From the NCBI GenBank assembly GCA_021805395.1, contig JAJZFJ010000011.1, positions 1 through 47,412 of the forward strand: DNA of 47,412 nucleotides. The letters are read 5' to 3'. The translations under genes and the position numbers were made by a program. Below, piece after piece: positions 28,485-30,551 of the stretch. Under the pieces are notes generated by a model. It had not been told where the DNA came from, did not search any database, and saw only the letters and a program-made list of their open reading frames with translations. Source of the DNA: a bacterium (GTDB taxonomy: Bacteria > Armatimonadota > Chthonomonadetes > Chthonomonadales > Chthonomonadaceae). Numbering within the stretch: position 1 is the first letter of the stretch; every line of letters begins with the position of its first letter.

Positions 28485-28856
28485 ATGATCCAACAACTGA
28501 CTATTAGGAGTTGGGTAATGGTGGTAGGAGTGGTTTAGTATGTGTATGTTAGATGATATTGTGTGAATTCGGTTCGTTGTATCATGAGTACTTAATCTTT
28601 TCCCCGAACTTTGAGATGTATTTTGTGAATATCTATGTAGCAAGTCTATTGACATTGCTTCCAGCTCTTGTTATAATACGCCTAACTTTAGAATTCAGAA
28701 AACATCAGCAAACTTCTTAATCCTTACCAGTGATTGAACTATTTACTGCGATATTTCGCTTGTACCGTAGGACCGTGAACCCTAATCCATTGCTGAGGAA
28801 AGATTTAAGTATGGAACTCGAACGGAATTCTGTACTTACTGGGACAATAACAAACC
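28485..28856. other. AT-rich spacer before the three-gene cassette
   Basis: No recognisable gene. A 45-codon plus-strand frame ends at TGA 28865-28867 and overlaps the next gene by 11 bases (reading RRTVNPNPLLRKDLSMELER), but it has no ribosome site and may be a remnant or chance frame. The next gene also lacks a good Shine-Dalgarno sequence. Confidence 0.35.
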
Positions 28857-29627
28857 ATGTTCGATGAACCTCGCTACAGGCAAAACCAATTATCCCTAAT
28901 TCTATTTCCTCCTTCAAAAGATGTTCGCCGCAAAGCGATCCAATTTGAGGAAAAACTGAAAGATATGATGGAGGGTACTGATGGGGGCTATTTTCCGGCT
29001 GTCGTTCACTCTGTACCTGATGAACTAGATCCACAAATACCACGAGTAACCTTTAATTCTGAGCATAGCTTTAGTTCAATTAATATTTCTCAGGCTAGCA
29101 TCGTCCTTACTATAGGATATTCTGATGATTGGCAAACAGAATCAGATAAACGAAATCAGTATATTATGGAGAGGATCCCTGTCCTATTCGGCTTGAAGGA
29201 ATTATTGATTGAGACACAAGTCCTATTTTGTGGTTTTTCATCGTTAGTTCATCTATCAACACTTATGAACGATACAGAGATTATCAGGCATTTGTCAACC
29301 AAATATTTCCACGAATTGAGAGATGATCCACAGATATATGACCTTGAGCTGAAGCGTTCATTTGTGATTGATGATAAGTACTTTAATACTATATCGATTG
29401 CAAATTATAGATCAATTAATTTTGCTTTCAATCCAAATGACATGAATCCGTTGTTAGGAAAGGTCATAGAGCAGGGTATCCAAATTGTTTCAGATTTTAA
29501 TGACAAATATCAGCTATCACAAGGTATGGAGGCCTATCGCTCATCTGAAGAAACAGTTAGACGTGTTGTTGAACTTGCATTAGATTCTGTGCAACAGGAA
29601 GCAATGAGGATTATAGATACCAAATGA
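28857..29627 (+). CDS. TIGR04255-like protein, first gene of a three-gene cassette
   Basis: The protein has 256 residues. A stop lies just upstream in frame, so the ATG at 28857 is the first possible start; no clear ribosome site is seen. The pattern LSLILFPP, then PQIPRVTFNSEHSFSSINIS and IVLTIGYSDDWQ, resembles the opening of the sporadic TIGR04255 family, whose function is unknown. The C-terminal half (SINFAFNPNDMNPLLGKVIE) is mixed alpha/beta and ends in a helix (ETVRRVVELALDSVQQEAMR). It overlaps the next gene by four bases (ATGA), which implies coupled translation. Its AT-rich composition differs from the neighbours and suggests transfer. The family assignment is tentative. Confidence 0.55.
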   Translation: MFDEPRYRQNQLSLILFPPSKDVRRKAIQFEEKLKDMMEGTDGGYFPAVVHSVPDELDPQIPRVTFNSEHSFSSINISQASIVLTIGYSDDWQTESDKRNQYIMERIPVLFGLKELLIETQVLFCGFSSLVHLSTLMNDTEIIRHLSTKYFHELRDDPQIYDLELKRSFVIDDKYFNTISIANYRSINFAFNPNDMNPLLGKVIEQGIQIVSDFNDKYQLSQGMEAYRSSEETVRRVVELALDSVQQEAMRIIDTK

Positions 29628-30190
29628 GTAATGATGTTCTAGAATACGTATCAACCATTAAATCGCCATACATAAATTCTATTAATTCTGTCATACCTAG
29701 TTCCAGATCGCAGCACCCATTTTCCTCTCTCATCGCGAGAGATATAATAATCTCATTTTTAGACTCGTTGTCAAATTGGAAAAATATGGATTCTATTAGA
29801 AGTTTTTCATCAACAAATCCTCGATCTAATAATCTTACAATATTGCCCCCAATTACTTATGACGACAGTACCTACGATATAATGAACGATGATATTCGAC
29901 GTTCATTGGGCTTCTATCTTGGAATAGTTCAGAATTTTTTGTCCCAATCAAACTATATCCTAATCAACTGCTTGGATGTGTCATATTACATTGACCCCGA
30001 GGAGTCACTCAAACAATTGGTAATTACTCATTGGTTGAATACTTCGGCAGATGTCGCAATGAAATATTGGGAGGATATAGACAATCAAGTTGAATATGGA
30101 TTAGAATCCGCATCTGCTGAAATTGCTGAAACCATAAGAGATTTTATAGTAACAAGTGTACAATGGAAAACAGATGACAACACTGAATAG
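29624..30190 (+). CDS. Unknown protein, middle gene of the cassette
   Basis: The protein has 188 residues and starts at an ATG overlapping the previous stop by four bases. It is soluble, rich in Ser, Asn and Ile, and largely helical. The N-terminal third (VIPSSRSQHPFSSLIARDII) and the middle (DDDIRRSLGFYLGIVQNFLS-like segment at about 90-110) have no recognised match. The C-terminus is acidic (YWEDIDNQVEYGLESASAEI). Its end overlaps the start of the HEPN-like gene. The tight packing argues that all three products act together. Confidence 0.55.
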   Translation: MSNDVLEYVSTIKSPYINSINSVIPSSRSQHPFSSLIARDIIISFLDSLSNWKNMDSIRSFSSTNPRSNNLTILPPITYDDSTYDIMNDDIRRSLGFYLGIVQNFLSQSNYILINCLDVSYYIDPEESLKQLVITHWLNTSADVAMKYWEDIDNQVEYGLESASAEIAETIRDFIVTSVQWKTDDNTE

Positions 30191-30551
30191 TCCAAGCAAT
30201 ACACCCTTTGACCCAATGAAGTTTCTTAAAGCTGCGGAAAATCTCGCTAAAGAGGAAGATGAATGTAGTCTGAGAATAGCAGTTGGAAGATCTTATTATG
30301 CGCTTTTCTTATTGGCTAGAGAGAAGTTGAAAGTCCTTGCAATAGATAACGTACATACTGCGGTTCTTCAAGCAATGGGAAGACGAGACAGAAAGATGAA
30401 AAATCTGCTTTTTGAACTACATAGGCTACGCAAAGTAGCGGATTATGAACTTATTCCATTGCTTAATAAAGATAGCAATTGGAAAGCAAACTGGATACGG
30501 CACAAAAAATTATGTGATAAACTTCTTCCACAGCTGCATCGTCTGCAATAG
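30174..30551 (+). CDS. HEPN-like domain protein, last gene of the cassette
   Basis: The protein has 125 residues. The ATG at 30174 overlaps the previous gene by 17 bases; an ATG at 30156 would add six residues. The pattern RIAVGRSYYALFLLAREKL (34-52), VHTAVLQAM (60-68) and HRLRKVADYEL (83-93) is that of small HEPN proteins of the UPF0332 type, found in toxin-antitoxin and defence loci. The common HEPN RNase motif R-x4-6-H is not obvious, so it may bind nucleic acid or nucleotide without cutting. In HEPN/MNT pairs the partner is a nucleotidyltransferase, and none is present here. Confidence 0.65.
   Translation: MTTLNSPSNTPFDPMKFLKAAENLAKEEDECSLRIAVGRSYYALFLLAREKLKVLAIDNVHTAVLQAMGRRDRKMKNLLFELHRLRKVADYELIPLLNKDSNWKANWIRHKKLCDKLLPQLHRLQ

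Follow-up and report, generated by a model that had tools for sequence, protein, structure and literature searches.

A three-gene HEPN cassette from a member of the Chthonomonadaceae, with a first protein of predicted TBP-like fold, as a candidate tripartite toxin-antitoxin module

The stretch of DNA analysed here (47,412 nucleotides, hereafter called the window) contains three co-directional genes, which raise the question of whether they form a system of their own and, if so, of what kind. In the first-pass annotation they had been described as three overlapping, AT-rich genes, the first TIGR04255-like (after a "sporadically distributed" NCBIfam family), the second an orphan and the third HEPN-like, and an undescribed defence or toxin-antitoxin (TA) system had been proposed. 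The features of the locus are as follows.

28649..28677, + strand: sigma-70-like promoter, TTGACA-17-TATAAT with extended -10 (12/12 consensus), called by consensus match only, 180 bases 5' of P1
28857..29627, + strand: P1, first component, 256 amino acids, predicted duplicated TBP-like fold, phrog_22817 family, pI 4.9
29624..30190, + strand: P2, putative antitoxin/adaptor, 188 amino acids, pI 4.3, N-terminal part 47 % S/T/P/N/Q/G
29972..30082, + strand: DPE-motif stretch (P2 residues 117-153), weakly similar to the antitoxin that accompanies solo HEPN genes (empirical p ~0.005)
30174..30551, + strand: P3, assigned to the AF0298-type HEPN proteins, 125 amino acids from the ATG (131 amino acids from the GTG at 30156), pI 9.8

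The open reading frames and the AT-richness were confirmed: the cassette has a GC content of 36.8 % compared with 43.4 % for the window (z = -2.3 among 1.7-kb windows, near the window minimum), and GC3 is 31-33 % in its genes compared with 35-46 % in the other measured genes. P1 and P2 overlap by 4 bases (ATGA, 29624-29627), and P2 and P3 by 17 bases from the ATG at 30174, which is the most likely start of P3, or by 35 bases from the GTG at 30156. The genes flanking the cassette encode a trypsin-like PDZ protease, a small membrane protein with weak similarity to YnfA/UPF0060 and an esterase-like protein. No convincing attachment-site repeats were found in the flanks searched, and in an empty-site comparison the best matches of the two flanking genes did not lie near one another in the relatives, so that insertion was not demonstrated. 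A nucleotidyltransferase adjoining the cassette was found neither among the window ORFs nor in the domain scan, as the first-pass annotation had stated, the window gave no Rfam match and no reverse transcriptase was matched among the scanned proteins. At the window edge (39-464) lies a gene for a protein consisting largely of GREEGKVV repeats, at least seven of them consecutive.

The HEPN-like character of the third gene was borne out by matches of P3 to phrog_5176 (E 2e-11) and to the PADLOC model HEPN_IX (E 1.5e-4), and by a profile of P3 and nine relatives, which matched the solved HEPN structures 9xbd, 9xbc and 2hsb (AF0298) and the HEPN of retron Kva2. The residues H61, R86, D90 and Y91 are invariant in this set (10/10), the canonical Rx4-6H motif is absent from P3, and an alternative conserved histidine is located between helices 2 and 3. 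From the structure-profile match and the type-specific conserved residues P3 is classed in the HEPN superfamily as a protein of AF0298 type, in which the motif histidine is typically absent and a second histidine, in the interval between helices 2 and 3, may make an alternative RNase site (Anantharaman et al. 2013, PMC3710099). As the canonical motif is missing, RNase activity of P3 is not assured; HEPN proteins without Rx4-6H can be non-catalytic (PMC3710099). The structures 9xbd and 9xbc differ by a Y-to-F change in the RxxxDY motif of the aligned stretch (RSDYD and RSDFD, respectively), suggesting that this motif is under experimental test by others.

P1 matched phrog_22817 over nearly its whole length (E 1.7e-14) and had no match in Pfam, NCBIfam or PADLOC. 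The TIGR04255 HMM gave no match to P1 at E values up to 1 and, in a search of the window's own genome, found other loci without P1 among them, which leaves direct membership of P1 in that family without HMM support. In a profile-profile comparison P1 and TIGR04255 scored 29.4 (P = 0.0012), compared with 9.8-14.4 for shuffled and 11.6-13.5 for reversed profiles, a similarity that is marginal, above the shuffles and collinear in both P1 subgroups. The earlier TIGR04255-like label needs correcting to this extent: P1 matches phrog_22817 and goes unrecognised by the TIGR04255 model, and apart from the marginal profile similarity its likeness to that family is confined to topology, size and gene position (about 250 amino acids, first of three genes, same order of secondary-structure elements) and to partner genes (HEPN, PIN and QGD, see below).

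The AlphaFold2 model of P1, built with good confidence from six sequences (pLDDT 87.4, pTM 0.84), has the element order beta-alpha-beta-beta-beta-alpha essentially twice. In a Foldseek search of viral models the top match was A0A515MGR4 (E 5.5e-7, TM 0.49/0.59); a putative TATA-binding protein (TBP) came next, and TFIID and VETF subunits stood lower in the list. Matches to the PDB were weaker, TBP was not in the top 50, and AdoMetDC/prozyme and MHC-like matches (TM ~0.33 or less) were rejected. The model thus gives P1 a duplicated TBP-like fold, the best TM of 0.49/0.59 being that of a fold resemblance; at the sequence level there was no TBP family match and no SecB match, Pfam giving none whatsoever. 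P1 (pI 4.9) and the TIGR04255 proteins are acidic, and this speaks for binding to protein rather than to nucleic acid. A TIGR04255 member modelled from two sequences gave a poor model (pLDDT 49) with an element order similar to that of P1. Yeast TBP was on top in a PDB search with it, and little weight is placed on this match because the model is poor and the match not significant (E 0.03). A match of the TIGR04255 profile to PDB 9hnh was discounted, as it covers an apparent helical repeat.

Genes of the TIGR04255 family were found in 40 of 251 genomes of Armatimonadota. A recognised third gene, starting ~200-730 bases downstream, was present in 35 of the 44 loci read (16 "SVD", 11 "QGD", 7 HEPN and 1 PIN), counts which describe this set and are no independent test, the seed profiles having been derived from some of the same 44 loci. 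Pfam identified a PIN third gene in two further loci. HEPN and TIGR04255 matches coincide at near-constant spacing in seven genomes (G022, G075, G042, G080, G117, G121 and G011, the last perhaps with a degraded copy, having a stop inside the match), and these TIGR04255-middle-HEPN cassettes span seven GTDB families other than that of the window. The window's own genome carries two other TIGR04255 cassettes, both of SVD type (L074 and L075, at G000:C206:7827-8561 and G000:C83:790-1524), and a TIGR04255-QGD cassette on a viral contig adjoins an integrase gene. The third gene of one further TIGR04255 cassette (L104, G065:C507, 1891-2373) encodes a protein with a DTGSP motif and no Pfam match, which reads like a retropepsin-type aspartyl protease.

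The P1 family itself was found in 2 of 291 genomes of Armatimonadota, the phylum which the systematic count covers. In a Fimbriimonadia MAG a P1 relative is followed by a 93-amino-acid middle gene and a VapC-like PIN protein. The relatives in a Leptospira phage, a Lachnospiraceae MAG and Paenibacillus each have a small gene in the middle, and the third protein there, which carries QGD and CD motifs, belonged to phrog_4575 in both cases tested. In the Paenibacillus locus and on a viral contig, which ends just 3' of P1, the P1 relative lies immediately 3' of endolysin-like (amidase) genes. Enterobacterial plasmids of ~2.6-4 kb encode a shorter P1 relative and then a protein of 121-163 amino acids, with membrane helices predicted by eye; this form consists of two genes, without a separate middle gene. 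The proteins that accompany P1 relatives are PIN, QGD or putative membrane proteins. The QGD proteins of P1 and TIGR04255 cassettes are homologous (hhalign P 7.5e-8), and all third-gene kinds beside chromosomal or phage P1 relatives (HEPN, PIN and QGD) therefore also occur beside TIGR04255. With tblastn, P1 had no match in plasmids and one in phages, the Leptospira phage; scans of viral contigs with P1, P2 and P3 each as a single protein gave no matches, nor did a scan of E. coli genomes with the plasmid pair. On the small plasmids of Enterobacter, Shigella, Klebsiella, E. coli and Rahnella (L035, L036, L041-L044) the P1/membrane-protein pair is the main cargo. In the Leptospira phage (KF114877; L002, 3736-8916) the cassette lies directly 5' of a complete His-Xaa-Ser system, hxsA-D-B-C, genes which were not seen at the other P1 loci read and were rejected as part of the P1 system.

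It had been held that the proposed system would fail if the three genes did not co-occur elsewhere. The exact combination of P1, P2 and HEPN was found only at the window locus; the same layout and spacing recur with TIGR04255 in the first position in the seven other families, and different middle/third pairs accompany the relatives of P1, so that in the sense that matters co-occurrence is found.

P2 had no match in Pfam, NCBIfam, PADLOC or PHROG searches and is still not the complete orphan it had been taken for, its C-terminal part weakly resembling a recurrent HEPN partner. In the TIGR04255-HEPN cassettes the C-terminus of the middle protein is a DPE-motif domain, which some dozen other genomes also encode directly 5' of solo HEPN, in genes of ~116-172 amino acids. 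The profile score of the P2 C-terminus against this domain is weak (P2 ranks 11th when placed among 2000 shuffles of itself, p ~0.005), and the P2 DPE motif sits in the expected place (residues 117-153). The middle protein of one TIGR04255-PIN cassette has a DUF2281 match (6e-7) over its final 34 residues, DUF2281 being a partner of PIN toxins that resembles VapB. Towards the N-terminus, middle proteins usually have a high content of S, T, P, N, Q and G, which make up 47 % of this part of P2. The charges of the acidic P2 (pI 4.3) and the basic P3 (pI 9.8) are opposed, and judged by its sequence P2 looks like the antitoxin of P3.

The cassette is best read as a tripartite module of TA type, in which a constant P1 or TIGR04255 component is combined with swappable antitoxin-toxin pairs, a reading to which we give a probability of about 50 %. 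P3 would be a HEPN toxin, probably an RNase acting through the alternative histidine, and P2 its antitoxin, the C-terminal part of which would bind and neutralise P3 while the flexible N-terminal part would connect to P1. P1, as the functional equivalent of TIGR04255, would most likely stabilise or license the antitoxin, in the manner of the SecB-like chaperones of toxin-antitoxin-chaperone (TAC) systems; we infer that the toxin would be freed when P1 is acted on by a phage protein or by stress, and that P1 may sense phage. Traits of type II TA systems are present (small overlapping genes, a basic putative toxin and an acidic partner), the HEPN partner recurs both in cassettes and stand-alone beside solo HEPN genes, and relatives are located in phage, prophage and small plasmids. 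Against the module count the many solo HEPN-antitoxin pairs without P1 or TIGR04255, the weak similarity of the P2 C-terminus, the marginal P1-TIGR04255 similarity, the low quality of the TIGR04255 model, the missing Rx4-6H motif of P3 and the two-gene plasmid form. The toxin-antitoxin half of the original proposal is fairly well supported, because of the HEPN fold, the recurrent antitoxin-like upstream partner, the opposite charges and the overlapping genes; the defence half is circumstantial, being based on the prophage, phage and small-plasmid locations of relatives.

Foremost among the alternatives, in itself rather unlikely, is a defence system which is not a true TA system, with P1 sensing phage, P2 relaying the signal and a HEPN effector that is harmless until activated. 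It is favoured by the plasmid form, in which the membrane protein is the likely effector and there is no separate middle gene to serve as antitoxin, and it would suit the varied third genes and the prophage, phage and plasmid locations; the C-termini of the middle proteins nevertheless have the look of antitoxins cognate to the third protein, and this HEPN is also known from simple pairs that lack P1. These solo pairs would fit P2 and P3 as an ordinary two-gene HEPN TA pair, P1 being a passenger or a TBP-like, nucleic-acid-binding regulator sharing the operon, as TBP-like domains elsewhere in bacteria, e.g. in RNase HIII, bind nucleic acid (PMC3710099). We regard this as unlikely too and place it second, since P1 or TIGR04255 lies 5' of many unrelated middle/third pairs in constant order, both are acidic, and the P1 and P2 genes overlap. 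That the genes form a housekeeping or metabolic operon whose HEPN-like protein is inactive, a view to which the non-catalytic HEPN proteins lacking Rx4-6H (PMC3710099) would lend some colour, is highly improbable given the very scattered occurrence in the phylum (P1 in 2 of 291 genomes), the atypical GC content, the mobile-element settings of relatives and the swapped partners.

The tripartite TA reading invites comparison with several known systems. TAC systems such as CmdTAC (PMC5105189, PMC11618068) likewise have three genes, the third component proposed here to control the antitoxin; the cassette is not a TAC member, because the fold of P1 is TBP-like and not SecB-like, and it also differs in gene order and in partners that are swapped far more widely. 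In the HEPN-T family of AF0298 type (PDB 2hsb), P3 finds its family, with the motif histidine absent and the alternative one present, but here it shares an operon with P1 and P2, from which a nucleotidyltransferase is absent. HEPN-MNT systems (type VII TA) share the HEPN toxin, whereas the window cassette has neither an adjacent MNT nucleotidyltransferase nor, in P2, a protein related to MNT. Panacea and other promiscuous antitoxins also pair one conserved component with many toxin families (PMC8832971); here the constant part is a separate TBP-fold protein and the antitoxin varies with the toxin. The type IX retron (PADLOC HEPN_IX, retron Kva2) has a HEPN distantly related in sequence to P3, but the window lacks an Rfam ncRNA match and the scanned proteins a reverse transcriptase. 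None of the PADLOC models fits P1 or P2. No paper mentioning TIGR04255 was found in the open-access collection searched, which covers few subscription papers or bioRxiv preprints, and a description under another name may exist.

A wider proposal, which we advance tentatively and hold to fall short of an even chance, is that P1 and TIGR04255 belong together in a single superfamily of bacterial TBP-fold proteins, serving as interchangeable sensor or licensing subunits in a widespread, phage-triggered tripartite system and each linked through a swappable-end antitoxin to many toxins (HEPN, PIN, two unnamed families and membrane proteins). If true, this would provide a function for TIGR04255 and for the unnamed phage and plasmid family phrog_22817, would make a TBP-like fold the constant subunit of a TA or defence system, and would mark the two third-gene families without Pfam names as toxin candidates.

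Two further loci bear on how the HEPN-antitoxin part is distributed. In L014 (G004:C7, 39-1815) a 457-amino-acid macro-domain protein (Pfam E 6.5e-18) with a HEPN-antitoxin-like C-terminus is encoded 5' of a HEPN gene, and would be another fusion carrying this part. In L011 (G032:C40) the antitoxin-like gene upstream of HEPN (688-1053) starts with MGKKCANPPVVEE, which resembles MGKRYANPPIVEA, with which the TIGR04255 protein of G080, from the same genus, begins; a deletion seems to have joined the beginning of a TIGR04255 gene to the antitoxin end.
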